Source of the DNA: Rhodospirillales bacterium | GTDB lineage: Bacteria > Pseudomonadota > Alphaproteobacteria > ATCC43930 > CGMCC-115725 | Direction of reading: 5' to 3' | DNA: 64,000 bases | NCBI GenBank assembly: GCA_028288725.1 | Contig: JAQGIC010000074.1 | Coordinates: 1-64,000, forward strand | Shown here: piece by piece, positions 12,061-49,219 of the stretch | Numbering within the stretch: the first letter of the stretch is position 1 | Layout: each line of letters begins with the position of its first letter | Program-made: the position numbers and the translations under genes | Notes under the pieces: model-generated | Databases searched by the model: none | What the model was told of the DNA's origin: nothing | The model's input: only the letters and a program-made list of their open reading frames with translations

Positions 12061-12725
12061 TGGTCCCGTTCGAACCGATCCTGGCCCGCGCGCTTGAACG
12101 CCACGGCCAGGCCGACGTGACGGCGCACCTGCCCGCGGTCAAGAATGCCGCCGAACTGGCCGCCGTGCCGGACGACCGCTACCTGTCACTGCTGTGCCTC
12201 CGGGTGTTTCGGGCCGGGATCAAGCATTCGGTCGTGGACCAGAAATGGCCGGCGTTCGAGGCCGCGTTCCACGGCTTCGAGCCCCACGCCGTCGCCGCCA
12301 TGACCGAGGAGGACCTGGAGGCGCTGATGAGCGACAGCGGCCTGATCCGCCATTGGGGCAAGCTGAAGTCGGTGCCGCCCAATGGCGCGGCCTTGCGGAC
12401 GATCTCGGACGAGGCGGGCGGTTTCGGGCGCTGGCTCGCGTCCTGGCCGGCCGACCGGACGCTGGAGCTGTGGGATGCGCTCGCCAAGCGCTTCAAGATG
12501 CTGGGCGGCGATTCGGCGCCGCGCTTCCTGCGCATGGCCGGGCGCGACAGCTTCATCTTCAGCCCGTCGGTCGAGGCGGCGTTGAAGCTCTGGGGCGTGA
12601 GCGACGGCGGCAGGGGCAAGGCGGCCCGCGCCCAGGCCGCCGCCCAGTTCACCGAATGGGCCCGCACGACCGGCCGGCCGCTCGCCCACCTGTCGATGAT
12701 CCTGGCCTATTCGGTGCCGGAGTAG
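12060..12725 (+). CDS. DNA-3-methyladenine glycosylase I family protein
   Basis: A 221-residue protein of the Tag/HhH-GPD-like family. Recognisable stretches are DDRYLSLLCLRVFRAGIKHSVVDQKWPAFEAAFHGFEPHAVAAMTEEDLEALMSDSGLIRHWGKL and the later FKMLGGDSAPRFLRMAGRDSFIFSPSVEAALK. Tag enzymes excise 3-methyladenine from alkylated DNA; this is a divergent branch and lacks the Cys/His zinc-site pattern I would expect in E. coli Tag, so I leave the symbol blank. The start codon shares one base with the sppA stop (TGATG). Confidence 0.75.
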   Translation: MVPFEPILARALERHGQADVTAHLPAVKNAAELAAVPDDRYLSLLCLRVFRAGIKHSVVDQKWPAFEAAFHGFEPHAVAAMTEEDLEALMSDSGLIRHWGKLKSVPPNGAALRTISDEAGGFGRWLASWPADRTLELWDALAKRFKMLGGDSAPRFLRMAGRDSFIFSPSVEAALKLWGVSDGGRGKAARAQAAAQFTEWARTTGRPLAHLSMILAYSVPE

Positions 12726-12798
12726 GTCTCATGGCGCGAAGCTTGGCATCATGACAGGGCCATTGAGGCCCCGCGTAGCGAGCCAAGCCCGCGGATTG

Positions 12799-12824
12799 TC
12801 GGCAAAGGCTTCGGCCTTTGCCGA
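12799..12824. terminator. Hairpin with an 11-bp perfect stem and TTCG loop
   Basis: The arms 12799-12809 (TCGGCAAAGGC) and 12814-12824 pair perfectly around a C(TTCG)G tetraloop, the most stable RNA loop known. It lies between the convergent glycosylase and oligopeptidase genes, where a shared terminator is expected. No long T-run follows on either strand, so termination efficiency is uncertain. Nothing else is evident in 12726-12876. Confidence 0.65.
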
Positions 12825-12876
12825 TGGGCGCCCGGCGCCTGAGGGCGTCACATAACAGAGAGATAAGCGGGCCTGG

Positions 12877-14940: not shown

Positions 14941-14955
14941 GGCAGGCGCGCACTC

Positions 14956-15888
14956 TCAAACGACGGGAGGCGGCACTTTAGCGAGGATCGAGCGGAAACG
15001 GAAAGGGTGCCGCGTCGCGGGCAAGGTCATCGCCGCGACGCCGATCAGCACCAGCACCAGGCCCCCGGCGGTCTGCCAGCCGGGCAGCTCGCCCAGGAAC
15101 AGGATGCCGATCGCGACCGACACGGCCGCGCGCAGATAGGCGACGCTGGCGGTGCCGATCGAGCCCAACGATCCGAGCAGCCGGAAATAGACGACGAAGG
15201 CGCCGGCGGTCGAGCAGGTACCGAGGATGACCAAGGCGAGAATGGATTCGGTCGACGGCAGCGGCAGCGTCCAGGGCCGATCGATCAGCAGCGCCGCCGG
15301 CACCATGACCAGGGCCGAGACCGCGGTCGAGCCGGCGGCCGGCACGATCGCCGGCAAGCCGGCGAAATTCCGGCCGAACAGCACGGCGACCGCATAGCAG
15401 AGCGTGGCCGCGACGATCGCCGCCTGGGCCGGCACCTCGCCGCTGAGGCCGGCCCCGAGCGCGCCCGGCCCGACGATGGCGACGATGCCGGCCAGTCCCA
15501 ACAGCGTGCCGCCGAGCTGGCGCAGGCTCGCCGGTTCCCCGCGCGTCCAGATCCGGGCGAACAGGAAGGCGAAGATCGGCGTGGTCGAATTCAGCACGCC
15601 GGCGAGACCGCTGTCGATCCGCTGCTCGCCCCAGGCGATCAGGCTGAACGGCAGGATGCCGTTCATCGCCGCCTGAATGGCGAAGCGCCGCCAGATCAGC
15701 GGCGAGCGCGGCAGGGCGGCACTCTGGCGCGCCATGACCAGTTGCAGCAGGACGGTCGCGATCGTGACGCGGACGGCCACGAGCGTCAGCGGCGGGATCG
15801 TCTCGACCGCGACGCGGATCAAGGCATAAGAGGCACCCCAGAGCAGGGACAGCAGCAGGAGCAGGGCGAGATCGGTGCGGCGGGACAT
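14956..15888 (-). CDS. DMT-superfamily (EamA) exporter
   Basis: A 310-residue inner-membrane transporter with about ten hydrophobic segments arranged as two EamA repeats. Typical stretches are LLLLLSLLWGASYALIRVAVETIPPLTLVAVRV near the start and GIVAIVGPGALGAGLSGEVPAQAAIVAATLCYAVAVLFGRNF in the middle. EamA proteins export amino acids or metabolites; the substrate is unknown. I start at ATG 15888, which has GGAG 8 bases upstream; a TTG seven codons earlier lacks such support. An ArsR-family gene is divergently placed 130 bases away and may regulate it. Confidence 0.87.
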   Translation of the reverse strand: MSRRTDLALLLLLSLLWGASYALIRVAVETIPPLTLVAVRVTIATVLLQLVMARQSAALPRSPLIWRRFAIQAAMNGILPFSLIAWGEQRIDSGLAGVLNSTTPIFAFLFARIWTRGEPASLRQLGGTLLGLAGIVAIVGPGALGAGLSGEVPAQAAIVAATLCYAVAVLFGRNFAGLPAIVPAAGSTAVSALVMVPAALLIDRPWTLPLPSTESILALVILGTCSTAGAFVVYFRLLGSLGSIGTASVAYLRAAVSVAIGILFLGELPGWQTAGGLVLVLIGVAAMTLPATRHPFRFRSILAKVPPPVV

Positions 15889-16018
15889 CGGGCGGCTCCG
15901 GAACGGCAAGGACCGCCGAACCTGTCACCTTCCGTCCCGATCCGTCCCCTCGAATGCTTCGTTCCCGCACGAAGCATCCTCGCTTGTCTCCGGCCGCGGC
16001 CCCGCCCATCATCGGACC

Positions 16019-16735
16019 ATGATCGCCGCCGCAAACCTTGCCGAAGTCGCCGCCCTGGTCGGCGATCCCGCCCGCGCCAACATGCTGGCCGCCTTGATGG
16101 ACGGCCGCGCGCTGACCGCGTCGGAACTGGCCTTCATGGCGCGGATCACGCCGCAGACGGCGAGCGCGCATCTGGCCAAGCTGACCCAGTCGCATCTGCT
16201 GTCCGTCGCCAAACAGGGCCGGCACCGCTATTTCCGGCTGGCCTCGCCGCTGGTCGGCCGGATGCTGGAAGGCATCATGGCGGTCGCCGCGATCGAGGCG
16301 CCGCAGCGCTATCGGCCGGCATCGCCCAAGGACGCCGCCCTGCGCCAGGCCCGAACCTGCTACGACCATCTGGCCGGCCGGGTCGGGGTCGCGCTGGCCG
16401 ACGCGCTGACCGCCAGGGGCCATGTCATCCTCGGCGAGGACGGCGGCAGCGTGACCGACGGCGGTGCGGCGTTTTTCCGCGGCATCGGCATCGATCTTTC
16501 GCCCGATCGGCCGCGTCAGCGCTGCTTTTGCCGGCCGTGCCTGGATTGGAGCGAGCGGCGCCCACATCTGGCCGGCGCGCTGGGCGCCGCCCTCGCCGCC
16601 ACCGCGTTCGAGCAGGGCTGGATCGAACGGCTGCGCGATACCCGCGCCGTCGCGGTCACCGAACCGGGCGAGGCGGCGATGACCGCGCTGTTCGGCCCGC
16701 TGATGGCGGCCGCATTTTTACCGATTGAAAATTAG
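16019..16735 (+). CDS. ArsR-family winged-helix transcriptional regulator
   Basis: A 238-residue regulator. Residues ~5-85 form an ArsR winged helix (EVAALVGDPARANMLAALMDGRALTASELAFMARITPQTASAHLAKLTQSHLLSVAKQGRHRYFRLA). The C-terminal ~150 residues contain RQRCFCRPCLDWSERRPHLAGALGAALAATAFEQGWIER, a block found in the longer ArsR proteins that accompany transporters; its clustered cysteines (C-F-C-x2-C) could bind metal or sense thiol chemistry. It is divergent from the DMT exporter at 15888. I start at ATG 16019, which gives the usual ArsR N-terminus. Confidence 0.85.
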   Translation: MIAAANLAEVAALVGDPARANMLAALMDGRALTASELAFMARITPQTASAHLAKLTQSHLLSVAKQGRHRYFRLASPLVGRMLEGIMAVAAIEAPQRYRPASPKDAALRQARTCYDHLAGRVGVALADALTARGHVILGEDGGSVTDGGAAFFRGIGIDLSPDRPRQRCFCRPCLDWSERRPHLAGALGAALAATAFEQGWIERLRDTRAVAVTEPGEAAMTALFGPLMAAAFLPIEN

Positions 16736-16740
16736 ACAGG

Positions 16741-16799
16741 CTCAACCGGCACAGGCAAAATCGGAACACATCCAGTCCGATATTCCCTGTGAGGTTGAG
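16741..16799 (+). promoter_or_regulatory. Long nested stem-loop covering the ribosome binding site of the next gene
   Basis: CTCAACCGGCACAGG (16741-16755) pairs with CCTGTGAGGTTGAG (16786-16799) apart from one bulged position, and an inner dyad ATCGGA/TCCGAT (16760-16765 with 16777-16782) extends the stem. The 3' arm contains the GAGG Shine-Dalgarno-like bases just before ATG 16802. It could be the terminator of the ArsR gene, a translational switch, or both. Confidence 0.5.
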
Positions 16800-16801
16800 A
16801 C

Positions 16802-17461
16802 ATGGTCGATACGGCACTTTTCCCGGCGATGCGGGCGGCGATCCGGCAGAACGAACTGGGCAACGCCTCGCCCTATCGCCTGTCCTATGCGCGCCTCGGC
16901 CAGAGCGGCGCCAGCTTCGGCATCTTCCAGGGCGACACCAACGTCAACCCGCTGGCCCGTTCGACCTTGAGCGAGGTGCTGAACGCGGCCGGTATCGCCG
17001 ATGCGATCGTCGGCGGCATCCTGGCGGCGGTCAGCCGGCCGTTGCCCGAGGGGTGCCCGCTATCGCCGGCCGACACGGCTTTGGCCGATGGCGCGCTCGC
17101 CGCCCCCTTCGGTCAGGCGATCGTCGATCGGATGGACGACCAGCTGATGCAGACCGTGCTGAATGGCATCGACAGCTGCCTCGCGGCCAGCGGCGCGCGC
17201 CCGATCGACCCCGTGGCGCAACTCTATCTGGCGCTGTGGATCAACATGACCGGCGCGCCGACCACGCTCGCCAAATGGCTGGGTGGCACGACCGAGGCCG
17301 GGCTGGCGCCGCCCGACGGCGCGACGGTGAGTGCCGCGGACCTGGAGAATTATCTCCAGGCCAGTGCTTATTTCCGCGAAAACCCCCGGAATTTCGCCCA
17401 TATGCAGGCTTCGGTCGCCGCCGGCACGGTGCTGTTGCCGACGGTCGAGGCGGCCGTCTAG
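16802..17461 (+). CDS. Conserved hypothetical protein, possibly lysozyme-like
   Basis: A 219-residue soluble protein with no signal peptide or membrane segment. The N-terminal stretch RQNELGNASPYRLSYARLGQSGASFGIFQGDTNVN has the spacing of acidic and glycine residues (E18, D45) seen in lysozyme/chitosanase-like folds, and LYLALWINMTGAPTTLAKWLGG looks like a buried helix of such a fold. I do not recognise a characterised homologue, so a muralytic role is only a guess. Its stop codon TAG is the same CTAG tetranucleotide (17458-17461) used in reverse by the convergent aldo/keto reductase. Confidence 0.6.
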   Translation: MVDTALFPAMRAAIRQNELGNASPYRLSYARLGQSGASFGIFQGDTNVNPLARSTLSEVLNAAGIADAIVGGILAAVSRPLPEGCPLSPADTALADGALAAPFGQAIVDRMDDQLMQTVLNGIDSCLAASGARPIDPVAQLYLALWINMTGAPTTLAKWLGGTTEAGLAPPDGATVSAADLENYLQASAYFRENPRNFAHMQASVAAGTVLLPTVEAAV

Positions 17462-18465
17462 CTGCGCGGCACCCGGCCCTCGATCGGATAGGCGGGATCG
17501 CTGTAGCCGGGGGTGGACGGATGGCCGGTCGGCACCAGCCGGTCGATCAATTCCTCGTCCTCGGCAGTGAAACGATAGTCGAGGGCGGCTACGTAATCGT
17601 CCCATTGTTCCATGGTCCGGGGGCCCGCGATCGGCGCGGTGACCAGCTTGTTGTTCAGCACCCAAGCAATGGCGAACTGGCCGGCGGCAATGCCGCGCGC
17701 TTCGGCATGGGCCTTGATCTCCTGCGCCAGCACCAGGGATTCGCGGCGCCATTCGGTCTGCAGGATGCGCTTGTCCTGGCGGGCGACCCGGCTGTCGTTG
17801 GGCGGCGGCGCATCGGGCGAATATTTGCCGGTCAGCACGCCGCGCGCGAGCGGGCTGTAGGGTACCACGCCCAGTCCGTAATAGGCGCAAGCCGGCAGAT
17901 GCTCGACCTCGGGTACCCGGTTCATGGCGTTGTAGTAGGGCTGGCTGACCACCGGCCGGTCGATACCCAGCTGATCGGTCAGCCGGCAGATCTCGGCGAC
18001 GCGCCAGGAACGATAGTTGGAGACGCCGAAATAGCGGATCTTGCCCTGGCGCACGAGATCGCCCATCGCACGGACCGTCTCGTCGAGCGGCGTCGCCGGA
18101 TCCTCCTTATGCAGGTAGTAGACGTCGATATAGTCGGTGCCGAGCCGCTTCAGGCTGGCTTCGGCCGCCTGCATCACCCATTTGCGGCTGAGGCCCCGCT
18201 CGTTCGGCCCGTCGCCCATCGCGCCGGACAGCTTGGTCGCCAACACCCAGCGATCGCGCTCGGGCGCGATGGCACGGCCGACGATCGCCTCGGACTTGCC
18301 GTCGTTATAGACGTCGGCGGTGTCGATGAAATTGAAGCCGGCATCCCGGGCCTTGGCGATGATGCGGGCGGCGTCGCCTTCCTCGGTCGGGCCGCCGAAC
18401 ATCATGGTGCCGAGACAGAGCCGCGGCACCTTGATGCCGCTGCGCCCCAGATTGCGGTAGTCCAT
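17458..18465 (-). CDS. Aldo/keto reductase
   Basis: A 335-residue NADPH-dependent TIM-barrel oxidoreductase. The family pattern is complete: LGRSGIKVPRLCLGTMMFGG, GFNFIDTADVYNDGKSE with the catalytic Asp/Tyr, LATKLSG with the lysine, DYIDVYYLHKEDP with the histidine, GVSNY and the cofactor block PIAGPRTMEQWDDY. It resembles the YajO/potassium-channel-beta subgroup. The substrate is unknown. It ends on the same CTAG that terminates the facing gene. Upstream lies the repeat-filled gap 18466-18834. Confidence 0.92.
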   Translation of the reverse strand: MDYRNLGRSGIKVPRLCLGTMMFGGPTEEGDAARIIAKARDAGFNFIDTADVYNDGKSEAIVGRAIAPERDRWVLATKLSGAMGDGPNERGLSRKWVMQAAEASLKRLGTDYIDVYYLHKEDPATPLDETVRAMGDLVRQGKIRYFGVSNYRSWRVAEICRLTDQLGIDRPVVSQPYYNAMNRVPEVEHLPACAYYGLGVVPYSPLARGVLTGKYSPDAPPPNDSRVARQDKRILQTEWRRESLVLAQEIKAHAEARGIAAGQFAIAWVLNNKLVTAPIAGPRTMEQWDDYVAALDYRFTAEDEELIDRLVPTGHPSTPGYSDPAYPIEGRVPRS

Positions 18466-18493
18466 CGAATGCCTCCCAGAGTTTCTTCTCGAT

Positions 18494-18827
18494 CGTCATT
18501 CCCGCGCAGGCGGGAATCCAGCGAAAGCCGCGTCCCGCGGCGATATGACTTTGCCGCCGCGCTGCCGCGCCTAACACTCCGTCATACCCGGGCTTGACCC
18601 GGGCATCCACGCCCCTCCGCCGGAGCCCTGTTTGGCCGTGAAATCGGCTTGCCCAACCACGTGGATGGCCGGGTCAAGCCCGGCCATGACGATGTAAAAG
18701 ACTAACCGTCTGAATAAAACAGAAAGATATGTACATAGCCTAGCGCGAAGGCTGGAATCCAGGGCGGCCGCAAAGGCTGTCAGTGACCGTTCACCTGCTC
18801 TGGAATCCCGCCTGCGCGGGAATGACG
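18494..18827. repeat. Outer pair of 28-bp inverted repeats (18494-18521 / 18800-18827)
   Basis: The left copy begins CGTCATTCCCGCGCAGGCGG and continues GAATCCAG; the right copy is its reverse complement except for a single transition. Each copy also contains its own small dyad (CCCGC...GCGGG). Copies of this 'GTCATTCCCGC' type are frequent extragenic repeats in proteobacterial genomes. Together they bracket most of the 369-bp gap between the aldo/keto reductase and glcF, with no gene inside. Confidence 0.85.
18581..18690. repeat. Inner pair of 30-bp inverted repeats (18581-18610 / 18661-18690)
   Basis: GTCATACCCGGGCTTGACCC... at 18581-18610 faces GTGGATGGCCGGGTCAAGCC... at 18661-18690; the arms agree at 27 of 30 positions. 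They are nested within the outer pair at 18494-18827, so the whole gap could fold as a cruciform or a long hairpin RNA. The sequence between them and the A+T-richer stretch 18690-18760 encodes nothing I can support. Confidence 0.8.
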
Positions 18828-18834
18828 GAGAAAA

Positions 18835-20124
18835 TTAAGCCCCCAACGCCGCCGGCTTCGGCCCGCCGGTCGCCCAATCCAGCAGCTCGACGGTGTGCAC
18901 GACCGGCACGCCGGTGCCGCTGGCGATCTGGGTAATGCAGCCGATATTGCCGGCGGCGATCAGGTCGGGCGTGGTCGCGAGAATATTCGCAACCTTGCGC
19001 GCCTTCAGCTGTTCGGCGATCTCCGGCTGCAGCAGATTGTAGGTCCCGGCCGATCCGCAGCAGAGATGAGCCTCCGGCACTTCCTTCACGGCGTACCCGG
19101 CCGCGGCGAGCAGTGCCTTGGGCTCGGTCCGGATCTGCTGGCCGTGCTGCAGCGAGCAGGCCGCGTGATAGGCCACGGTCAGGCCGGAGGGCGCCGCCAC
19201 GGCACCCAGGCCCAGTTCTGCCATTACCTCGCTCACATCCTTGGCCAGCGCCGCGACGGCGGCGGCCTTCGCGGCATAGGCCGGATCCTCGCGCAGCATG
19301 AAGCCGTAGTCCTTCAGCGTCGTGCCGCAGCCGGATGTGTTGACGATGATCGCGTCGAGCCCCGCGCCGTCGACCTCGCGTGTCCAGGCGTCGATATTGG
19401 CCCGGGCCGCATCGTGCGACGCGTCGGTCTTGCCCATGTGATGAACCAGCGCGCCGCAACAGCCCGCCCCTTGCGCGACGACCACCTCGCAGCCGTGACG
19501 GGTCAGCAGCCGGATCGTCGCTTCGTTGATGCTGGGCGCCAGCACCTGCTGGGCGCAGCCGTTGAGCAGGGCCACGCGCTTGCGTCGCGGCCCGTCGGCC
19601 GCGAAGACCTGCGGCTTGTCGACCGCCGAGGGGGTCGGCAGATGCCCCGGGGCCAGCCGCAGCATCGGGCGCAAGCGCTTCGGCAGCAGCGGCGCCAAAG
19701 GCCTGGCCAGGATCGCGCCCATCAGGGCCAAGCGGAACAGGCCGGGGCGCGGCAGGACGAGGGCCAACAGCCGGCGCAGCTGCCGGTCGAGCCAGGGCCG
19801 CTGATAGGTCCGCTCGATCCAGGCGCGCCCATGGTCGACCAGATGCATGTAGTTGACGCCCGACGGACAGGTCGTCATGCAGGACAGGCACGACAGGCAG
19901 CGGTCGACATGCTTCACGATCTGTTCGGTCGCGGGCTTGTTCTGCTCCAGCATGTCCTTGATCAGGTAGATCCGGCCACGCGGGCTGTCGAGTTCGTCGC
20001 CCAGCAGCACATAGGTCGGACAGGTCGCGGTGCAAAAGCCGCAATGGACGCAGGCCCGCAGGATCTTGTCCGACTCGCGGACGTCCGGATCGGCGAGCTG
20101 AACGAAGGAGAAATGCGTCTGCAT
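18835..20124 (-). CDS. glcF: Glycolate oxidase iron-sulfur subunit
   Basis: The electron-transfer subunit of membrane-associated glycolate oxidase, which converts glycolate to glyoxylate. The 429-residue protein has two [4Fe-4S] ferredoxin motifs, C25-x2-C28-x2-C31-x3-C35 (CVHCGFCTATCP) and C76-x2-C79-x2-C82-x3-C86, then two CCG domains (GAGCCGALVHHMG and AHLCCGSAGTYN). ATG 20124 gives the normal GlcF N-terminus MQTHFSFVQLADP. It lies 5 bases after the glcE stop, so the two are cotranscribed. The partner glcD is about 5 kb away on the same strand, separated by three opposite-strand genes. Confidence 0.94.
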   Translation of the reverse strand: MQTHFSFVQLADPDVRESDKILRACVHCGFCTATCPTYVLLGDELDSPRGRIYLIKDMLEQNKPATEQIVKHVDRCLSCLSCMTTCPSGVNYMHLVDHGRAWIERTYQRPWLDRQLRRLLALVLPRPGLFRLALMGAILARPLAPLLPKRLRPMLRLAPGHLPTPSAVDKPQVFAADGPRRKRVALLNGCAQQVLAPSINEATIRLLTRHGCEVVVAQGAGCCGALVHHMGKTDASHDAARANIDAWTREVDGAGLDAIIVNTSGCGTTLKDYGFMLREDPAYAAKAAAVAALAKDVSEVMAELGLGAVAAPSGLTVAYHAACSLQHGQQIRTEPKALLAAAGYAVKEVPEAHLCCGSAGTYNLLQPEIAEQLKARKVANILATTPDLIAAGNIGCITQIASGTGVPVVHTVELLDWATGGPKPAALGA

Positions 20125-20129
20125 CTGGG

Positions 20130-21320
20130 TTAAACCCCTTCGACCATGCGGCCGGGATTGAGAATGCCGAGCGGATCGAAGCTCGCCTTGACGCGCCGGC
20201 TGAGGGCCGCGAGCGGTGCCGGTTCCGGCTCGAACACCGCGACCCGCGCGCGGACATCGGCCGCCGCCCGCACCAGCGTCGCATGGCCCGACGGCCCCTT
20301 GGCCTGGCGTATCCGCGCCGAGTTGCCGTCCGGGGCGGCCGGCAGCGCCAGCCAGACCAAGCCGCCGGCCCAGTCGAGATAGGCTTCCGCCTCGGGCAGC
20401 GCCGCGACCAGCCGGGCACCGTCCAAGGGCGCCACCGACACGCGCCAGACATCGCGCGACGGATCCGCCCCGAAGGGCTCGGCATCGCGGACCCGGCACC
20501 AGAAATCATCCGATCGGGCGCCATCCAGGCGGGACGCCGCCCCGCCGATCAGCCCCATCAGCGCGTCCAGGCGAAAGTCGACCGACGCGTCCAGGCCTTC
20601 GAAGCGCAGGGCGGTCACCGCCGCCCCCTCGCCCACGCCCACGCGCTGGGCCAGCAGGGCCGGCAGCCAGGCGGCGCCCGAGACCTCGTTGGAGCTGCCG
20701 AGCGCCGCCGCCATCGACCCGGCCGCGGTCGCCGCGTCCTGGTCCAGCAGCAACAGGGTCGCCGTCCGCTCCGGCCGGGGCAGCACCTTCAGCGTCACCT
20801 CGCTCATCACGGCGAGCGTGCCGAACGAACCGGCCAGCAGTTTCGACAGGTCGAACCCGGTGACGTTCTTGACGACCCGGCCGCCGGCCTTGAACAGCTC
20901 GCCCCGGCCGCTGACCGCCTGGAAGCCCAGCAGATGGTCGCGCGCGGCCCCCGCCGTCAGGCGGCGGGGCCCGGCCAGATTCGCGGCGACGATGCCGCCG
21001 ATCGTCTGGGTGCCCGGCGCCGTGCCGAGCAGCCGGGCCCAATCCGGCGGCTCGAACGCCAGCTGCTGGCCCTTCTGCGCCAGGGACTGCTCGATCTCGA
21101 TCAGCGTCGTGCCGGCATGGGCCGAGATCACCAGCTCCTCCGGCTCATAGAGCATGATGCCGCGCAAGGCGCTCAGCGACAGGCGATGGGTGGCTTCGAC
21201 CGGACGGCCCATGCCGCGTTTGGTGCCGGCGCCCGATATTTCCAACGGTAACCGTTCAGCCGACGCGGTCGCGACGGCATCGGTCAGCGCCGCGATGCTT
21301 TCAGGCCTCAACTCACTCAT
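20130..21320 (-). CDS. glcE: Glycolate oxidase FAD-binding subunit
   Basis: A 396-residue FAD_binding_4 protein, the second flavin subunit of the GlcDEF complex. The FAD motifs are visible in ISGAGTKRGMGRP, YEPEELVISAHAGTTLIEIEQSLAQKGQQLAFEPPDWA, GGIVAANLAGPRRLTAGAARDHLLGFQAVSGRGELFKAGGRVVKNVTGFDLSKLLAGSFGTL and the closing FDPLGILNPGRM. The start at 21320 gives the compact GlcE N-terminus MSELRPESIAAL. It begins the glcEF unit and is divergent from the TonB-dependent receptor gene, with a 259-bp shared upstream region. Confidence 0.94.
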   Translation of the reverse strand: MSELRPESIAALTDAVATASAERLPLEISGAGTKRGMGRPVEATHRLSLSALRGIMLYEPEELVISAHAGTTLIEIEQSLAQKGQQLAFEPPDWARLLGTAPGTQTIGGIVAANLAGPRRLTAGAARDHLLGFQAVSGRGELFKAGGRVVKNVTGFDLSKLLAGSFGTLAVMSEVTLKVLPRPERTATLLLLDQDAATAAGSMAAALGSSNEVSGAAWLPALLAQRVGVGEGAAVTALRFEGLDASVDFRLDALMGLIGGAASRLDGARSDDFWCRVRDAEPFGADPSRDVWRVSVAPLDGARLVAALPEAEAYLDWAGGLVWLALPAAPDGNSARIRQAKGPSGHATLVRAAADVRARVAVFEPEPAPLAALSRRVKASFDPLGILNPGRMVEGV

Positions 21321-21490
21321 CGTTCGGCTTCTCTTTTCGGCGCGAATGGGTGACGGGACCGCCCCCCTCAGGCCGTTCCTTTTAGCCCGATCGTGGCCGT
21401 CTTGCACCATCTCGTAACGACCCGCCGATTGCGACGACTTCGCCATCCAATCGTGCTCAAAGCCGGCCAAATCGGCGCGACCGGCCCAAT

Positions 21491-21509
21491 TGTGACAGGC
21501 ATCGTCACA
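21491..21509. promoter_or_regulatory. Inverted repeat in the glcE / receptor divergent promoter region
   Basis: TGTGAC (21491-21496) and GTCACA (21504-21509) form a 6-bp perfect dyad separated by 7 bases. It resembles a CRP-type half-site pair (TGTGA/TCACA) but the spacing is 9 rather than 6, so a CRP site is unlikely. It lies 71 bases before the receptor start and 170 before glcE, a sensible operator position for either. Confidence 0.4.
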
Positions 21510-21579
21510 CAAATGACGCGGATCGAGGGGCCGAAGCATCATCTCCGGATCCGCGGTCGGGGACATATTGGGGGTTCAT

Positions 21580-24500
21580 ATGTTGTCTTTTCACGGGGGA
21601 AAAATCCGCCCGAAGCTGGACTATCGACTTAAGGGCTCTGTCGCCCTGGTCGTGCTGCTGGGGCTGTTGCCGGCGGTTTCCGCGTTCGCGCAGACCGCGC
21701 CACAAACTGAAACAATCGAAGTAACCGGTTCGCGCCTGAAGAACAGCGACGCGGCGAGCGCCAACCCGATCACGGTCGTGTCGAGCGAAGACATTTCCAA
21801 AATGTCGGCGACGTCGGTCGAGCAGGTCCTGATGAAGCTGCCGTCGGTCGATTTCACCGCCGGATTCACCGCCAACAGCTCAAACGGCGGCGTCGGCGCC
21901 TCCCAGGCCAGCTTGCGCAATCTGGGTCCGGTGCGCACGCTCATCCTGCTGAACGGCCAGCGCTTTCCGTTCACCGACGTCCAACAGGCGACCAATTCGG
22001 TCGATCTCGATAACATTCCCGTGTCGATGATCGACCATATCGAAGTGCTGCGCGACGGCGCCTCGTCGATCTACGGTGCCGATGCGATCGGCGGCGTGAT
22101 CAACATCATCACCAAGCAGCACTTCAACGGCGTCGAGATCGGCGGCGGCGTCGGCGAGACCAGCTACGGCGACGGTCTGCGCCACAACGTCTATTCGACC
22201 ATCGGCGCCGACTTCGACCGCGGCAATGTCCTGATCAATGTCGGCACCGATCATACCGACGCCATCTCCCAGGGCGCCCGTGCCTGGGCCATCAGCCAGC
22301 ATCCGGAAGCCGATGCCTATAATTACACGCAGATCTCCAGCCGCCTCACCGGCGCTGTCGGCCTGATCAATTCGGGCCCGATCGACCCGAAGACGGGGCT
22401 CGCGACACCGCAACAGTGGTACTATGGCACCAATGGTATCAACAACCCGATCCTGTCCAAGAATTCCTATCTGCTCGGCACGACCCAGATCTCGCCAGGC
22501 GTCTTCACCGGCGGCGGCATCAGCCCGGGCGATCTCGGCGTCGCGGGCGTCGGCACCTACTTCAACTACCTGCCGACGCAGGGCCTGACGGCCGGCCTCG
22601 ATCGTCAGCAGATCAACTTCACGACCCACTATGACCTGGCGCCGAATATCACGGCGGTGGTCGAGGCTTTCTATACCGACCGCCAGTCGAACGAGATCCT
22701 GAACCCGGAGCCGCTCGGCTATAACGTGACGACGCCGCAGTTCCCGAACGGTCTGTATGTGGCGGCCCGTCTGCCGGACGGCACGCTGAACCCGTATAAT
22801 CCGACGAACGCGGCCAACGCCGCGGCGCTCTATGGCGCGGGCAACGTCAATACCAACGTGCCGATCCTGACCCGCCGGTTCGAGAACGGTCCGCGCTACT
22901 ACACGGACGACGTGCAGACTTACCGGATCCGTGCCGCCCTGCAGGGTACCCTGATGGGCAAATACGACTGGGAAGTCGGCTACATGTACGGCAAGTCGTC
23001 CGCGACCTACAACGTGGCGAACGAGGCGAATTTCTACAAGCTCTCCCAGGAAATGGGCATCAACCCCTGCGGCAGCTCGCCAGGCTGCTCGCTCGCCAAT
23101 TTCTTCGGCTACAACACGCTGACCCCGGCCCAGGCCAAGTATTTCTCGTTCACCAATACGGACACGAGCGAATACACCGAGCAGGACGTCTACGGCCATA
23201 TCGGCGGTACGGTCTATCAGTTGCCGGCGGGTCCGCTCGGCGTCGTCGTCGGCTTCGAATATCGTCCCGATACGCTGTTCGACCATCCGAGTTCGATCAC
23301 CAGCCAGGGCGATGGTGCGACCTACTCGCTGCCGACATCGGGCAGCTATGCCACGTCGTCGGGTTACGTCGAAGTCAACGCGCCGCTGCTGTCGAACCTG
23401 CCGTTCGTCAAAATGCTGACGGTCGACGCCTCGGGCCGGTACGACTACAACACGACCTTCGGTCAGGCGACGACCTATAAGGTCGGCCTCGACTACGCCA
23501 TCAACGACGATTGGCGTCTGCGGGGCAGTCATTCGACCGGCTTCCGGGCCCCGCAGCTCCGCGAACTCTACAGCGGTGCATCGCAAGGTCAGATCGGCGG
23601 CGCCGATCCTTGCGCAACCGGCCAGGCCTATGCCAACAGTGCCGCCTGCCTGGCCTCGCTCCCGGCCGGGGTGACCACGACCAGCCTGATCGCGGGCAAC
23701 CAGGTCACGGAGGCGACCGGCGGCAACCCGCAGCTGCATCCGGAAACCTCGCAGGAATGGTCCCTCGGTGGCGTGGCAACGCCGCATTGGATCCCGGGCC
23801 TGTCGGTTTCGACCGATTTCTACACCGTGCTGATCCGCAATGAGATCAGCAACTACAATGCCAACTCGCTGCTGGCCGCCTGCTTCGGCGGGGTGCCGTA
23901 CCTGGTTTCCCAGACGGTCGCCTGTCAGCTGGTCGGCCCGCGGACCACGAGCGGCGCGCTCGGCCCGATCAAGGCGATCAACGCCAATATCGGTGCCGAA
24001 AACACCGACGGCATCGACATCGACCTGGCCTATGGCATCGATACCGCGAAGCTGGGCCTGCCGGCTTGGGGCCATCTGGCGTTCAATGGCCAAGTCAATT
24101 ACCTGCTGAGCGACAATGTCTCTGCCGGCGGCGTGACGCAGCAGCAAGCCGGGACTTGGAACGGCGACAATGGCGAGCCGCGCTTCAAGGCCCTTATGAA
24201 CCTGCAGTTCGCCCGCGACAGCTGGTCGGTCGGTTGGACCACGCGCTACTACGGCGGTCTGAAGGCTGCCCCCGGTACCGTGACGCCGGATCCGGCCCTC
24301 GCATCGAGCTACGATGCGGCCGGCAACCTGTTGAGCTGCGCTGCGGCCGGCGTCGCAAAGAGCTGCGGCGATTGGGAAGGCAATCACGCGGCTGGTATCT
24401 TCTATCATGACATCAGCGGCAACTTTCAATACAAGAACGTCAATCTGACGGTCGGTGTCGACAACCTGTTCGACAAGGCCCCGCCGTTCCTTTATCCCAC

Positions 24501-24582
24501 GGGCCAGTCAAACGCCCCGGGTTCCGCCGGTTATGACTTCACCGGCCGGTTCATCTACATGAAAGCGTCGATCAAGTTCTAA
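21580..24582 (+). CDS. TonB-dependent outer-membrane receptor
   Basis: A 1000-residue outer-membrane gated channel. The signal peptide (RLKGSVALVVLLGLLPAVSAFAQ) is followed by a TonB-box-like ETIEVTGSRL, the plug domain (SVEQVLMKLPSVDF ... LRNLGPVRTLILLNGQRFP ... IDHIEVLRDGASSIYGADAIGGVINIIT) and a large beta-barrel ending in the aromatic terminus FIYMKASIKF. Four pairs of cysteines in predicted loops are notable. Members import siderophores, cobalamin, sugars or other large solutes; the substrate cannot be told. ATG 21580 has a GGGG ribosome binding site; an upstream TTG is in frame. A hairpin terminator follows at 24592. The two regulator genes downstream are candidates for its control. Confidence 0.93.
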   Translation: MLSFHGGKIRPKLDYRLKGSVALVVLLGLLPAVSAFAQTAPQTETIEVTGSRLKNSDAASANPITVVSSEDISKMSATSVEQVLMKLPSVDFTAGFTANSSNGGVGASQASLRNLGPVRTLILLNGQRFPFTDVQQATNSVDLDNIPVSMIDHIEVLRDGASSIYGADAIGGVINIITKQHFNGVEIGGGVGETSYGDGLRHNVYSTIGADFDRGNVLINVGTDHTDAISQGARAWAISQHPEADAYNYTQISSRLTGAVGLINSGPIDPKTGLATPQQWYYGTNGINNPILSKNSYLLGTTQISPGVFTGGGISPGDLGVAGVGTYFNYLPTQGLTAGLDRQQINFTTHYDLAPNITAVVEAFYTDRQSNEILNPEPLGYNVTTPQFPNGLYVAARLPDGTLNPYNPTNAANAAALYGAGNVNTNVPILTRRFENGPRYYTDDVQTYRIRAALQGTLMGKYDWEVGYMYGKSSATYNVANEANFYKLSQEMGINPCGSSPGCSLANFFGYNTLTPAQAKYFSFTNTDTSEYTEQDVYGHIGGTVYQLPAGPLGVVVGFEYRPDTLFDHPSSITSQGDGATYSLPTSGSYATSSGYVEVNAPLLSNLPFVKMLTVDASGRYDYNTTFGQATTYKVGLDYAINDDWRLRGSHSTGFRAPQLRELYSGASQGQIGGADPCATGQAYANSAACLASLPAGVTTTSLIAGNQVTEATGGNPQLHPETSQEWSLGGVATPHWIPGLSVSTDFYTVLIRNEISNYNANSLLAACFGGVPYLVSQTVACQLVGPRTTSGALGPIKAINANIGAENTDGIDIDLAYGIDTAKLGLPAWGHLAFNGQVNYLLSDNVSAGGVTQQQAGTWNGDNGEPRFKALMNLQFARDSWSVGWTTRYYGGLKAAPGTVTPDPALASSYDAAGNLLSCAAAGVAKSCGDWEGNHAAGIFYHDISGNFQYKNVNLTVGVDNLFDKAPPFLYPTGQSNAPGSAGYDFTGRFIYMKASIKF

Positions 24583-24591
24583 AATTTAGGG

Positions 24592-24640
24592 TGGCGCGCG
24601 GAGGAATCCGCGCGCCATTGCTTACAAGCACTTTCTTTTC
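24592..24640 (+). terminator. Rho-independent terminator after the receptor gene
   Basis: Arms 24592-24602 (TGGCGCGCGGA) and 24607-24617 pair perfectly around a GGAA tetraloop, and a T-rich run (TTGCTTACAAGCACTTTCTTTT) follows. It starts 9 bases after the receptor stop codon. It separates the receptor transcript from the RepL-like gene, which may therefore depend on its own promoter or on read-through. Confidence 0.8.
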
Positions 24641-24668
24641 CTCAATCCTGACAGAGGGCGAGAGTGAC

Positions 24669-24980
24669 ATGAACCACCTGAACGGCATGATGATTGCCCG
24701 GTCTCCGGCCTTTGGCCGCGAAGCCTATAAGATTCTCTGGTACCTGACGGAACAGCTCGAGTTCGACAACTTCGCCGTCCTCAATATCGGCGAGATTTCG
24801 TCCGACCTCGGGCTCAAATCCCAGGCCGTGAGCCGCGCGTTGCGCACGCTGATCGACGGCGGCGTCGTCGAACGGGGTCCGCGGGTCGGCCAGCGGAGTT
24901 CATTTCGCTTCGTGCCGGCAGCAGCGCCGTATTCGCAACGCAGGGATCTAAAAATAGAGCAACCGCCGGCGATGACTTGA
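24669..24980 (+). CDS. RepL-like winged-helix DNA-binding protein
   Basis: A 103-residue protein made almost wholly of one winged helix: GREAYKILWYLTEQLEFDNFAVLNIGEISSDLGLKSQAVSRALRTLIDGGVVERGPRVGQRSSFRFVP. The layout (single helix, 'YL...L.FDNF..L...EI...LG....VSRAL..L...G...RGP.VG....FR') matches the RepL family, first known as replication initiators of small rolling-circle plasmids. Here it sits in the chromosome with no plasmid genes, between a TonB-dependent receptor and an AraC regulator, so a transcription-factor role is more likely. The ATG at 24669 follows GAGGGCGAGA. Family assignment is by pattern only. Confidence 0.7.
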   Translation: MNHLNGMMIARSPAFGREAYKILWYLTEQLEFDNFAVLNIGEISSDLGLKSQAVSRALRTLIDGGVVERGPRVGQRSSFRFVPAAAPYSQRRDLKIEQPPAMT

Positions 24981-25116
24981 GTAATTTGAGGTATTCAGAG
25001 ACCGTGCGACAGTATGTCCATGGGACTCGTTAGCATAAATATAAATAGTCTAAGCTCAGATAATGTCTTCCTTCATAGCTCCATTCGGTGAGCTTTTCGC
25101 GAAAGGAGGGGATGTA
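24981..25116 (+). promoter_or_regulatory. A+T-rich promoter region and strong Shine-Dalgarno of the AraC gene
   Basis: This gap is markedly richer in A+T than its surroundings (TAGCATAAATATAAATAGTC around 25031-25050), as expected of a promoter. AAGGAGG at 25103-25109, 7 bases before ATG 25117, is the best Shine-Dalgarno in the window and decides the start of the regulator against an upstream in-frame ATG at 25063. Confidence 0.6.
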
Positions 25117-25983
25117 ATGGGCCGAGACGAAAGGATTGTCGCGATACCCGGTACGGTCCGCCGTATCGCGGTACCCGCGGATCCGATTTTGCCCGGCCTG
25201 ACAGTCGGTCTCTACGCCACCGGTCGCGGTCGGTTCGAGGCCGCGCCCGCCCCGGAACATCGCCTGATCGTACAGATGGGCGCCGCGGCCATGACCGATT
25301 GCCGCGTCGACGATCAGCAGCAGACCCGCCCCCAGATGCACGGCGATATCGACCTGCTGCCGGCGGGATCGACCGCCAGCTGGGAGATCGATCCGTCGGC
25401 GATCTCCATTCGGTTCCGGTTCACCCCCGCCCTGCTGCGGCGTATGGCGGCGGATATCGGGCTCAATCCCGATCTGATCGACCTTACGCCGCAATTGCAG
25501 GCGCGCGACGCCCAGATCGAGCATATCGCGTCGGCCCTCCATGCGGCGCTGACGACCGAGGGATCGCTCGGGCGGCTGTACGGCGAGAGCCTCGGCACGG
25601 CGTTCATGGCGCGCGCGGTCAGCCGCTTCGTCGCCGAGACGCCGGTCAAGGTCAAGGGCGGCCTGCCGAAGCGGCAGTTGCAGCGCGTCATCGACTATGT
25701 CGACGCGTTCACGGATGAGGCCCTGTCGCTGATCGATCTCGCCGCGATCGCCGGCGTCAGCGTCTCGCACTTCAAAAGCCAGTTCCGCCGCTCGATGGGC
25801 GTGCCGGTGCATCAATATGTGATCCAGCGTCGGGTCGAGAAGGCCAAGTCCCTGCTGATGCAGGGCCGCGCCATCAGCCAGGTGGCGCTCGACGTCGGCT
25901 TCTCGCACCAGAGCCACATGGCCCGCTGCATGCGCCGCGTGCTGGGCCTGTCCCCGATGGAGGTCTCCCGCCTGGCGGGCTGA
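25117..25983 (+). CDS. AraC-family transcriptional regulator
   Basis: A 288-residue regulator. The C-terminal ~100 residues hold the two AraC helix-turn-helix units (LSLIDLAAIAGVSVSHFKSQFRRSMGVPVHQYVIQRRVEKAKSLLMQGRAISQVALDVGFSHQSHMARCMRRVLGLSPMEV), a textbook match. The N-terminal ~180 residues have no domain I can name and probably sense a ligand. The start at 25117 is set by the ideal AAGGAGG site. The gene is convergent with glcD (10 bases apart) and reads in the same direction as the RepL-like and receptor genes, so it is a candidate regulator of the receptor or of glc. Confidence 0.9.
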   Translation: MGRDERIVAIPGTVRRIAVPADPILPGLTVGLYATGRGRFEAAPAPEHRLIVQMGAAAMTDCRVDDQQQTRPQMHGDIDLLPAGSTASWEIDPSAISIRFRFTPALLRRMAADIGLNPDLIDLTPQLQARDAQIEHIASALHAALTTEGSLGRLYGESLGTAFMARAVSRFVAETPVKVKGGLPKRQLQRVIDYVDAFTDEALSLIDLAAIAGVSVSHFKSQFRRSMGVPVHQYVIQRRVEKAKSLLMQGRAISQVALDVGFSHQSHMARCMRRVLGLSPMEVSRLAG

Positions 25984-25992
25984 GCGGAATGC

Positions 25993-27480
25993 TCAGAACC
26001 GCGGCAGGTCCGGAAACGCCAGTTCGCCGTGATGGACATGCAGGTGCCCCAGCTCGGCGCAACGGCGCAGCTGCGGGAACACCTTGCCGGGGTTCAGCAG
26101 ATGGTCCGGATCGAAGGCGCATTTGAGCCGCATCTGATGGTCCAGATCCTGCTCGTTAAACATCACCGGCATCAGATCGCGCTTTTCGACGCCCACGCCA
26201 TGCTCGCCGGTCAGCACGCCGCCGACCTCGACGCACAGGCGCAGGATATCGGCGCCGAACCGCTCGCAGCGGTCGAGTTCGCCCGGCTGGTTGGCATCAT
26301 AGAGAATCAGCGGATGCAGATTGCCGTCGCCGGCGTGGAACACGTTCGCGACCCGCAAGCCGTATTGCTGGGACAGCACCTCCATGCGCGCCAGCACCTC
26401 GGACAGGCGGCGGCGCGGGATCGTCCCGTCCATGCAGAGATAATCGGGCGAGATGCGCCCGACCGCCGGAAACGCCGCCTTGCGCCCGGCCCAGAAGCCG
26501 AGCCGCTCCGCCTCGGTCGTGCTGACCCGGCACGAGACCGCGCCACAGTCGCCGGCGATCGCTTCGATGCGCGCCATATAGGCGTCGATCTCGCATTCCG
26601 GCCCGTCCAGTTCGACGATCAGCAGCGCCTCGACATCCAGCGGATAACCGACCCGGACGAAGGCTTCGGCGGCGTGGATCGCCGGTCTGTCCATCATTTC
26701 CATGCCGGCCGGGATGATGCCGCCTGCGATGATCCGGGCGACGCAATCGCCGGCGCTCTCGCTGGTCGGAAAGCCAATCATCATCGCCTTCAGATGCGCC
26801 GGTTTCGCCAGCACCCGCACGGTAACCTCGGTCACCACGCCCAGTAGCCCCTCGGACCCGGTCAGCACGCCCAGCAGGTCATAGCCGCCCGAATCCAGAT
26901 GCTTGCCGCCGATGCGCAGAACGTCGCCGTTCATCAGCACGAATTCGAGCCCCAGCACGTTGTTCGTGGTCAGGCCGTATTTCAGGCAATGCACGCCGCC
27001 CGAATTCTCGGCGATATTGCCGCCGATCGTGCAGGCGATCTGGCTCGACGGATCCGGCGCGTAATAGAAGCCCGCATGCTCGACGGCGCGCGTGATGCCC
27101 AGGTTGGTGACGCCGGGCTGGACCGTGACCGCGCGGTTGGGCAGATCGACCTCGATCACCCGATTGAGCTTGCCGAGCCCGAGCGTGATCGCGTCCGCCA
27201 ACGGCAGCGCGCCGCCGGACAGCGAGGTGCCGGCGCCGCGCGGCACGATCTTGATGCCCTCCTGCTGGCAATAGGCCATGACCGCCGACACTTCGGCGGT
27301 CGAGCCGGGCAGCACGGCGATCAGCGGCGGCTGGCGATAGGCGGTCAGCCCGTCGCTTTCGTAGACGCGACGCTCGTCTTCGTGATCGATCACCGACTCG
27401 GGCTTCAACAGGGTGCGCAGGTGAGCGGCGATCTCGCGCCGACGCGCGACGATGGCGGCATCCGGAGTCGGCATCTTCAT
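25993..27480 (-). CDS. glcD: Glycolate oxidase subunit GlcD (FAD-linked)
   Basis: The 495-residue catalytic flavoprotein of glycolate oxidase. FAD_binding_4 motifs are clear: LIAVLPGSTAEVSAVMAYCQQEGIKIVPRGAGTSLSGGALP, GVTNLGITRAVEHAGFYYAPDPSSQIACTIGGNIAENSGGVHCLKYGLTTNNVLGLEFVLMNGD and the C-terminal VFHAGDGNLHPLILYD ... GGVLTGEHGVGVEKRDLM ... FDPDHLLNPGKVFP with the conserved catalytic histidines. It normally heads a glcDEF operon. Here glcEF lie 4.7 kb downstream on the same strand beyond three genes of the opposite orientation, so a single transcript is unlikely. Confidence 0.94.
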   Translation of the reverse strand: MKMPTPDAAIVARRREIAAHLRTLLKPESVIDHEDERRVYESDGLTAYRQPPLIAVLPGSTAEVSAVMAYCQQEGIKIVPRGAGTSLSGGALPLADAITLGLGKLNRVIEVDLPNRAVTVQPGVTNLGITRAVEHAGFYYAPDPSSQIACTIGGNIAENSGGVHCLKYGLTTNNVLGLEFVLMNGDVLRIGGKHLDSGGYDLLGVLTGSEGLLGVVTEVTVRVLAKPAHLKAMMIGFPTSESAGDCVARIIAGGIIPAGMEMMDRPAIHAAEAFVRVGYPLDVEALLIVELDGPECEIDAYMARIEAIAGDCGAVSCRVSTTEAERLGFWAGRKAAFPAVGRISPDYLCMDGTIPRRRLSEVLARMEVLSQQYGLRVANVFHAGDGNLHPLILYDANQPGELDRCERFGADILRLCVEVGGVLTGEHGVGVEKRDLMPVMFNEQDLDHQMRLKCAFDPDHLLNPGKVFPQLRRCAELGHLHVHHGELAFPDLPRF

Positions 27481-27569
27481 CGGCGGGTCCCATCTCTAAA
27501 GATCAGGGCCGCATGATCTCAGCCAAGGCCTACCGATGGCAAGGTCGGATGTGCCGCACCGAAACGACG

Positions 27570-27601
27570 AAAGGCCGACGGGTGGTGACCCGTCAGCCTT
27601 T
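27570..27601 (-). terminator. Terminator downstream of rpmJ
   Basis: AAAGGC/GCCTTT (27570-27575 with 27596-27601) and GACGGGT/ACCCGTC (27577-27583 with 27588-27594) build a 13-bp stem with one C-A mismatch and a GGTG loop. Read on the minus strand it is followed by TTTCGTCGTTTC. It lies 78 bases past the rpmJ stop and also ahead of the glcD start region. No other feature is evident in 27481-27679. Confidence 0.7.
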
Positions 27602-27679
27602 GGCCTGGAACAGCGGTAGAAGGCTTGATCCCTGATGGGGCGGGGCGCGAACGCGCCCGGCCCGAACGGGACCGCCGGC

Positions 27680-27805
27680 TCAGCCCTGGCGGGCCTTGAA
27701 GCGCGGGTTGGCCTTGTTGATCACGTAGACGCGCCCCTTGCGGCGCACCACGCGGCAGTTCTTGTCCCGCTTCTTCAGCGACTTCAGCGAATTCACGATC
27801 TTCAT
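27680..27805 (-). CDS. rpmJ: 50S ribosomal protein L36
   Basis: A 41-residue, highly basic ribosomal protein: [20 protein letters not shown] then [20 protein letters not shown]. It is the longer, zinc-independent (C-minus) form standard in alphaproteobacteria: only one cysteine remains of the zinc-binding C-x2-C-x12-C-x4-H set. It binds 23S rRNA in the large subunit. The ATG at 27805 gives the universal MKI/V start; an in-frame upstream extension is not part of the gene. It stands alone, as is usual for this L36 type, with a hairpin terminator downstream. Confidence 0.96.
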
Positions 27806-27937
27806 GACGAGCCCTGGCGATGCGGCATGGATAACTTGGAAGCCGCGGAACCTATGGTAAGCCCCGCCCCCTGTCAATCCACCGTTACCCTCTTTCGACG
27901 CAAAGCCCGCCTGCGCGCACGGCAGGGACGGCTGAAC

Positions 27938-28915
27938 TCACGAAATCGCGCCATAGGTCGACACCGCATAGAAGCGATAGACCCGTAGCACGCCGCCGTG
28001 GACCGCTGCCATGCGGGTCATCCACAGATCGCCCTCTTCGGCAATTGCCGTCTGGTTGCCGCGCGTCATCAGCTTCACATCGTAATTTTCGACGAACTGG
28101 GCCCAGCCCTGGTTCACGTGCTGCACGTACAGGTCGGTATGATCCTCGGTGATGCGAACGTCGAAGCCGCTTGCGGTCAGGCAATCGGTATATTGCTTGA
28201 TGGTCCAGGGCACGGGTGGGTACCGCTCGATGGTGCGCAGGGCTTCGAGGTTCTTGTCTTCCAGGTCGCCGTCGTCGGACAGCACGAAATCGACGAAGCT
28301 GAACTGACCGCGCGCCTTGAGCGCCTTGCCGATCTCGCGAAACAGCCGCTCCTTGGCCACGACCGACACGGTCAGATATTCGGCATAGGCGCAGTCGAAG
28401 GCGTGGGATTTCAGCTCGACCGTTTCCGGGTCATAGGCCGTGACCGGCACCTTCTTGCTCAAGCCAGCGTCGATCGACATGGAATGACCCCGCTTGGCGA
28501 TCTCGGGCGCCCGCTCCATCGCGGTGATATAGACGTCGAAGAAGTGCGAAACATGCCGGGACGGACCGCCCAGACCCGCCGTCAGATCGAGCAGGCTCAT
28601 CGCCGGATTGACGCCGAACGGCTTCACCATCGTCATCACATAGTCGACGCCGCCCGGCACCAGGAAGCCCGGCCCCCAGATCTTCTGCGACAGTGCCAGA
28701 CGGTCCACCGGCTCCTCGGCGATATCGACCGTGTCCTCGACGACAATCTCGGGTTCCTGACGCGCGACCGCATGCGGATCGTAGCCGTACCACCAGAAGC
28801 GGAGGCGATGGAACATGACGTCGTCGGCACGGTCCAGCACCGCGTCGAACCGGGCGTGAGAGAGGGGATTTTTCAAAAGCACCGAACGGACACCCGCATT
28901 GCCGGGCGCCAGCAT
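27938..28915 (-). CDS. Class I SAM-dependent methyltransferase
   Basis: A 325-residue cytosolic protein. Motif I of the Rossmann methyltransferases is seen in MSLLDLTAGLGGPSRHVSHFFDVYITAMERAPEIA, followed by an acidic motif and KERLFREIGKALKARGQFSFVDFVLSDDG (post-motif strand and helix). The first ~100 residues (FHRLRFWWYGYDP ... LSQKIWGPGFLVPGGVDYV) resemble small-molecule methyltransferases of the sterol/quinone type, as does the WTIKQYTDCLTASGFDVRITED block. The substrate is unknown. The true start may be a later codon, since the first residues are not conserved-looking. A sensor kinase gene lies just upstream on the same strand. Confidence 0.8.
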   Translation of the reverse strand: MLAPGNAGVRSVLLKNPLSHARFDAVLDRADDVMFHRLRFWWYGYDPHAVARQEPEIVVEDTVDIAEEPVDRLALSQKIWGPGFLVPGGVDYVMTMVKPFGVNPAMSLLDLTAGLGGPSRHVSHFFDVYITAMERAPEIAKRGHSMSIDAGLSKKVPVTAYDPETVELKSHAFDCAYAEYLTVSVVAKERLFREIGKALKARGQFSFVDFVLSDDGDLEDKNLEALRTIERYPPVPWTIKQYTDCLTASGFDVRITEDHTDLYVQHVNQGWAQFVENYDVKLMTRGNQTAIAEEGDLWMTRMAAVHGGVLRVYRFYAVSTYGAIS

Positions 28916-39996: not shown

Positions 39997-40106
39997 AGTC
40001 ACCCTCCTCGTCGGTGGTGCCGGCATGACGCTTTCCACTTGCCACCGGTCCCGTCCTCTACACAGTCTGTGGCCCATTCGACAATCAGATTGGCGCGCAC
40101 AAGCCG

Positions 40107-41834: not shown

Positions 41835-41842
41835 CGAGGATC

Positions 41843-43066: not shown

Positions 43067-43505
43067 CGCGACGCGCGGCTTCACGCTGGTCGAAATGATC
43101 GTCGTGGTCGCGATCCTGGGCCTCGTCCTGGCCATGGTCGCGGCGCGCGGCCCCCTGGGCCTGCATACGCTGACCGCGCGCGCGGCCGCGAACGAGCTGG
43201 CTTCCGGCTTCCGCCAGGCCCGCGCCCGCGCCATCGCCGACAATCGGACGGTCGCGGTCAACATCGACCTGGCCGGCCATCGCTGGCGCGTCGGTGCCGA
43301 CAGGCCGACCGAGCTGCCGCGCGATCTGGATATCGCCGTCCTGACGATCGCCGGCCAGTCGGCGGGCGGGACCGCGGCCGACATCCGGTTCCTGCCCGAT
43401 GGCAGCTCGACCGGTGGCCGGGTCGAGCTCAGGGACGCCGGCCGCCGGATGCGGATCGGGGTCGATTGGCTCAACGGCCGGGTCAGTGTCGGCGATGCGG
43501 ACTGA
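43050..43505 (+). CDS. gspH: Minor pseudopilin GspH
   Basis: A 151-residue pseudopilin. The prepilin motif R-GFTLVEMIVVVAILGLVLAM begins at residue 9, with cleavage after the glycine and the key Glu at +5. The remainder fits the GspH beta-rich head (AAANELASGFRQARARAIADNRTVAVNIDL). Minor pseudopilins H, I, J and K form the tip of the pseudopilus. It overlaps gspF by 17 bases and gspI by 11, so translation of the set is probably coupled. Confidence 0.92.
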   Translation: MTWRSNATRGFTLVEMIVVVAILGLVLAMVAARGPLGLHTLTARAAANELASGFRQARARAIADNRTVAVNIDLAGHRWRVGADRPTELPRDLDIAVLTIAGQSAGGTAADIRFLPDGSSTGGRVELRDAGRRMRIGVDWLNGRVSVGDAD

Positions 43506-49215: not shown

Positions 49216-49219
49216 ACCC

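Follow-up and report, generated by a model that had tools for sequence, protein, structure and literature searches.

Why glcD, which encodes the FAD subunit of glycolate oxidase, lies apart from glcE and glcF in this genome is a question with two parts: whether the separation is an old arrangement or the result of a later insertion, and whether it ties glycolate metabolism to the genes now found in between. Within the window (the whole stretch of 64,000 nucleotides that was analysed) all three genes are on the − strand, and no contiguous glcDEF operon is present, as 4,672 bp filled by three + strand genes separate glcE from glcD. The original prediction had described this arrangement with correct coordinates and strands, placing three opposite genes in about 4.7 kb, and had regarded the intervening cassette as an outer-membrane receptor together with two DNA-binding proteins, which agrees with the Pfam domains and HTH matches obtained. 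The features of the locus are the following:

18835–20133, − strand: glcF, iron-sulfur subunit of glycolate oxidase (NF008434, over the cut-off), overlapping glcE by 4 nt
20130–21320, − strand: glcE, glycolate oxidase subunit, intact (NF008439, over the cut-off), head to head with the receptor gene
21321–21567: divergent intergenic region of 247 bp, the new 5′ region of glcEF and of the receptor gene
21336–25992: inserted segment of about 4,657 bp, bounded by the ribosome-binding region of glcE on one side and the stop codon of glcD on the other
21580–24582 (alternative start TTG 21568), + strand: TonB-dependent receptor (TBDR), with PF07715 plug and PF00593 barrel
24591–24618, + strand: GC-rich hairpin with a 12-bp stem, 8 nt past the receptor stop, terminator-like with a poor T-tract
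24669–24980, + strand: 103-aa winged-helix DNA-binding protein with a RepL/MarR-like HTH
24981–25062, + strand: spacer upstream of araC, 82 bp, 39% GC
25063–25983 (alternative start 25117), + strand: AraC-family regulator, 9 nt from glcD, tail to tail
25993–27480, − strand: glcD, FAD subunit of glycolate oxidase, ancestral first gene of the operon, intact

Elsewhere in the window there is a Type II secretion gene cluster (39244–50041; T2SSE, T2SSF, secretin and T2SSK) that includes a prepilin peptidase gene (39244–39996), and an IS481-like transposase gene (56230–57186), no other mobile-element gene being recognised in a scan that covered 50 of the 64 predicted window genes.

Integrity of the enzyme genes and their order in relatives

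Open reading frames were found for all three subunits. In family profile searches GlcF scored 481 bits (cut-off 333) and GlcE 302 (cut-off 284), and the best two families for GlcD were both GlcD families, at scores under their cut-offs (652 vs 897 and 499 vs 568). By best family match these are the same three subunits as those of E. coli glcDEF and Paracoccus denitrificans Pden_4397-99, the order glcD-glcE-glcF being ancestral. Identity to the congener G001 is 90% for glcD, 77–79% for glcE and 84% for glcF, with NG86 dN/dS values of 0.063/0.584, 0.144/0.633 and 0.110/0.473, respectively (ratios of about 0.11, 0.23 and 0.23). Nine relative-rate tests (three genes with three outgroups) revealed no significant rate excess in glcDEF (chi-square at most 2.31); for glcF against one outgroup, 22 unique changes were counted here vs 14 in the congener (chi-square 1.78). 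Neither stops nor other signs of decay were seen in the three genes, and since all three subunits are intact and constrained, the enzyme is probably still made from the split genes.

The order of these genes was compared using a glcD search of 99 genomes including the source genome, 82 of which gave some match at E ≤ 0.001; 57 relatives (the source genome not being counted) carry an orthologue-like match, above paralogues near 33% identity. The comparison used wider loci for 56 of the 57 and a short locus (L032) for G028. According to a scripted count, 48 of the 56 loci have a same-strand glcE no more than 594 nt beyond glcD (median 17). G058 was also counted as contiguous, its glcE starting 129 nt past the glcD match and being broken off by the contig end after 40 residues, and G028 is contiguous too, giving 50 of 57 relatives with adjoining glcD and glcE, including the congener, in which the order is glcD-glcE-glcF with 25 nt from the glcD stop codon to the glcE start. 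In three relatives the contig stops too early for a judgement, inside glcD or where glcD ends (G022 and G012) or 583 nt farther on (G077), and four are arranged otherwise (G029, G020, G011 and G033). No receptor, small HTH or AraC gene follows glcD in any of the 54 assessable relatives, and no matches to the three proteins were obtained in the 56 glcD loci or in L032, several of these loci being short.

The four deviating genomes differ among themselves. G029 (L042:7236-10108; genome 77% complete) has glcF adjoining glcD and no glcE at good identity, and in G020 (L044), G011 (L205) and G033 (L217) other genes lie downstream of glcD, glcE and glcF being on other contigs (on two different ones in G020). 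The separation of glcD from glcEF therefore recurs, without this cassette, in three family members belonging to two genera.

Synteny among the relatives thus did not reveal the same split order throughout the clade, and the expectation that glcDEF is normally a single operon, put forward in the original prediction along with that of a later insertion, is borne out by the ancestral glcD-glcE-glcF order seen in relatives and by the uninterrupted site in the congener. We regard the split as a derived, lineage-specific insertion into a contiguous glcDEF ancestor, with a probability of about 0.85 as judged from these comparisons. The insertion is unique to the source genome within the sample and, G001 being the single congener returned, the event can be placed only on the branch since the split of both genomes.

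Boundaries and composition of the inserted segment

The boundaries can be traced by comparison with the congener, with which blastn yields two collinear blocks (18847–21335 and 25995–28842) that are 12 nt apart in the congener. When the window flanks are joined and aligned, homology extends beyond the start codon of glcE and through its ribosome-binding region as far as 21335 and resumes at the glcD stop codon (25993), while about 10–12 nt of the congener's glcD-glcE gap are without counterpart in the source genome. The comparison shows that about 4.66 kb carrying the TBDR, RepL/MarR-like winged-helix and AraC genes on the opposite strand entered this short gap. No target-site duplication or terminal repeat was found at the junctions, by eye or in the repeat listing, a search that a very old or short-repeat element could escape, and the three cassette proteins contain no mobile-element Pfam domain (transposase, integrase or relaxase). 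The segment is therefore without the features of a transposon or integrative element, and because no mobile-element hallmark was found, illegitimate recombination would be the default route of entry.

A second break in synteny lies beyond glcF, 2.5 kb from the insertion, and window positions 12000–18846 gave no blastn match in the 56 kb around the congener locus. Between the aldo/keto reductase gene and glcF (gap 18465–18835), nested inverted dispersed repeats with 28-nt and 32-nt arms occupy positions 18494–18827, similar copies being present in other loci.

As had been predicted, the middle of the cassette is A+T-rich, region 24600–25080 having 55.1% GC compared with 66.8% for the window and reaching its lowest value, 39%, in 24981–25062. 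The cassette (measured on 21338–25992) has 62.7% GC, with 62.7% for the TBDR gene, 60.6% for the small HTH gene, 67.2% for araC, and 55% and 39% for the two spacers. By codon index the small HTH gene is the most atypical, at 0.507, a value made noisy by its shortness; the index is 0.705 for the receptor and 0.665 for AraC, compared with 0.637–0.781 for eight neighbouring genes, which also served as the reference and are favoured by this. The receptor's relatives are likewise low in GC (61–65%), and because of this, and since the 67.2% of araC is not anomalous, composition is no proof of a foreign origin of the cassette.

Origin of the three cassette genes

The receptor has both a plug domain and a beta-barrel (PF07715 and PF00593, over the cut-offs), as well as a signal-peptide-like N-terminus and an ETIEVTG sequence, which we take to be a TonB-box-like motif. 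Closest to it are two tandem genes of the congener (G001:C32; 74% and 64%) and one gene in the source genome itself (G000:C142; 52%). They belong to the same receptor family and adjoin oligopeptide-transporter (opp) genes, for which Pfam identified OppB-, OppC- and OppD-type proteins in G000 and an OppF-type protein in G001, the other G001 counterparts being recognised by similar sequence starts. As the 74% identity to the congener's first copy is within the range of identities between neighbouring genes of the two genomes (72–90%), the body of the receptor looks native to the genus. Unlike its opp-linked relatives, the inserted copy lacks adjoining transporter genes, and no nucleotide homology between its upstream DNA and theirs was detected; the idea that it moved together with its promoter from the opp locus was accordingly abandoned. 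All plasmid matches to the receptor (2,317 records) were under 60% identity.

The opp loci show an arrangement of their own. In the congener the tandem TBDR genes are located upstream of the oligopeptide ABC transporter genes (L191:9487-15936), the source genome having one such gene, and the opp-linked receptors of the two congeners (L191:12979-16300 and L192:10019-13200) share promoter and N-terminal sequence: the first 100 alignment columns are 90% identical and the rest 32–66% per 100-column window, a pattern that would fit an exchange of receptor bodies downstream of a promoter and signal peptide that stayed conserved. A common operator, TTGTGACGATCG with at most 1 mismatch, was considered for these promoters and the divergent region and dropped. 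With that tolerance the pattern occurs 40 times in G000 and 54 times in G001 vs 3 and 3 times for its reversed form, which is not a matched control; two of its six exact matches are upstream of the opp-linked receptors (G000:C142 and G001:C32) and four elsewhere, none of them in the window. The literature search returned no paper joining a TonB-dependent receptor, an oligopeptide ABC transporter and peptide uptake.

The small winged-helix protein had been labelled RepL-like, a label that proved to be weak. The protein does show partial similarity to small enterobacterial plasmid proteins (about 36% identity over residues 18–81 in tblastn), some of which are annotated as RepL or replication protein, but its match to Pfam RepL (PF05732; E 0.041) reaches 13.8 bits vs a cut-off of 20.3. 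Matches were found in 3 of 61 genomes, including the source genome, and the better two (G000:C16, 38%; G001:C2, 43%) lie among neighbouring genes common to both genomes, for which reason they look chromosomal. Its plasmid matches (150 records) were all under 60% identity.

The third protein has a C-terminal AraC-type HTH (PF12833, HTH_18, E 3.7e-21, and PF00165, HTH_AraC, over the cut-off), and AAAGGAGG, a ribosome-binding-like site, precedes the in-frame ATG at 25117, a candidate start. Its best relatives have 46% identity in the 61 genomes. A large genome collection yielded 52 loci with best-segment identities of 35–65%, the closest of the longer matches being at about 48%; by title, 46 of the 52 are from myxobacteria, Variovorax or Eremiobacterota. 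TBDR, small HTH or glcDEF matches were present near none of these 52 (flanks of up to 10 kb, often shorter). A receptor-HTH-AraC cassette travelling as a unit was rejected on the grounds of this lack of co-occurrence and of plasmid matches below 60% identity. Because the kin of the receptor adjoin opp genes in the genus and those of the AraC and small proteins lie elsewhere, the cassette looks composite.

Expression of the divided operon and competing explanations

It had been proposed that the insertion forced glcD onto a separate promoter. This is not right, since glcD opens the operon and the DNA upstream of it is collinear with that of the congener; glcD keeps its original upstream region, and glcEF is the part that was cut off. 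As transcription from the glcD promoter can hardly run through 4.66 kb of opposite-strand genes, glcEF presumably relies on a new promoter within the 247-bp divergent region. A sigma-70-like scan of 21300–26100 gave one site vs 1.4 expected and none in the divergent region, a simple promoter scan being weak evidence in a GC-rich genome. The receptor and the two regulator genes are probably separate transcription units because a strong hairpin follows the receptor stop (24583–24640 folds at −28.1 kcal/mol, z −5.2; the terminator scan did not report it), and the 39% GC spacer at 24981–25062 is likely the araC promoter region. Most likely AraC would act on itself and/or on the receptor gene.

The divergent region contains a direct repeat, CCGGCCAAAT/CCGGCCCAAT, with 18-nt spacing at 21463–21490, and an inverted repeat, TGTGAC-N7-GTCACA, at 21491–21509. 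They were rejected as regulator sites, as the direct repeat was equalled in 46 of 500 shuffles and at least as many inverted repeats occurred in 274 of 500. In Paracoccus denitrificans, a GntR-type gene, glcR, adjoins glcDEF (Pden_4397-99) and is described as encoding its repressor (PMC11323563). The present locus differs in the three-gene insert that parts glcD from glcEF and in the absence of a detected GntR-family gene, none having been found at the thresholds used among 50 of the 64 predicted window genes. AraC might have taken over glc regulation, which stays speculative because the repeats are no better than those of shuffled sequences. No paper combining glycolate oxidase and glcD with a TonB-dependent receptor and AraC was returned by the literature search.

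These observations bear on the possibility that the cassette has been recruited, with the AraC and/or RepL-like protein controlling the divergent promoter and glcEF being co-expressed with uptake of the receptor's ligand. Such an arrangement would be in keeping with the head-to-head position of glcEF and the receptor gene over 247 bp, with two regulator genes adjacent and the repeats between them. It is nevertheless very unlikely, as neither repeat beats chance, this receptor is without linkage to the AraC family or to glc in the other loci examined, and glcD would stay outside such control. Very unlikely, too, is a regulatory fusion created by the insertion, by which an AraC-type or RepL-like sensor of the cassette would drive the divergent promoter and glcEF would be made only when the receptor ligand is present; were it true, the ligand could perhaps be peptide-like, a compound that phototrophs release together with glycolate. 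The functional link between imported ligand and glycolate suggested by the original prediction was likewise not upheld, the receptor's kin adjoining oligopeptide-transporter genes and the association recurring in 0 of the 52 AraC loci and 0 of the 54 relatives.

The two other explanations concern how the segment came to be there. If a small replicon or transposon had integrated, with the RepL-like gene as the replication gene of a small plasmid that brought the receptor and AraC genes along, this would explain the roughly 36% identity over 64 residues to small-plasmid proteins, part of which carry a RepL or replication-protein annotation; yet the protein is under the Pfam RepL cut-off, its relatives in G000:C16 and G001:C2 look chromosomal, and the cassette has no integrase, relaxase or transposase and no junction repeats that could be seen, which makes this origin very unlikely. 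An assembly artefact joining unrelated sequences within the glc operon must be considered in a draft assembly of 146 contigs, where the window almost fills its contig (C95, 64,061 bp). Against this, the flanks correspond to opposite sides of a single 25-nt gap in the congener, two breakpoints of a chimeric join would have to meet in that one short gap, and the closest relative of the receptor comes from this genus, arguing against contamination; we regard such an artefact as extremely improbable. The preferred reading therefore remains a derived insertion, after which the receptor gene with its own hairpin and the two regulators would function as separate units and glcEF would be read from a new divergent promoter.

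The case is one of ordinary operon break-up, and no new system is indicated. The splitting of gene blocks is named among frequently observed changes in bacteria (PMC4481853), and the locus resembles the splitting described there in that a conserved block is broken up; there is no difference in kind from it, only the cargo and the site being particular to the source genome in the sample. What the locus offers is a sharply bounded break-up of an operon, for which one of two congeners preserves the uninterrupted site and both keep the enzyme genes under constraint, and it could serve to study how the cut-off pair glcEF regains a promoter.
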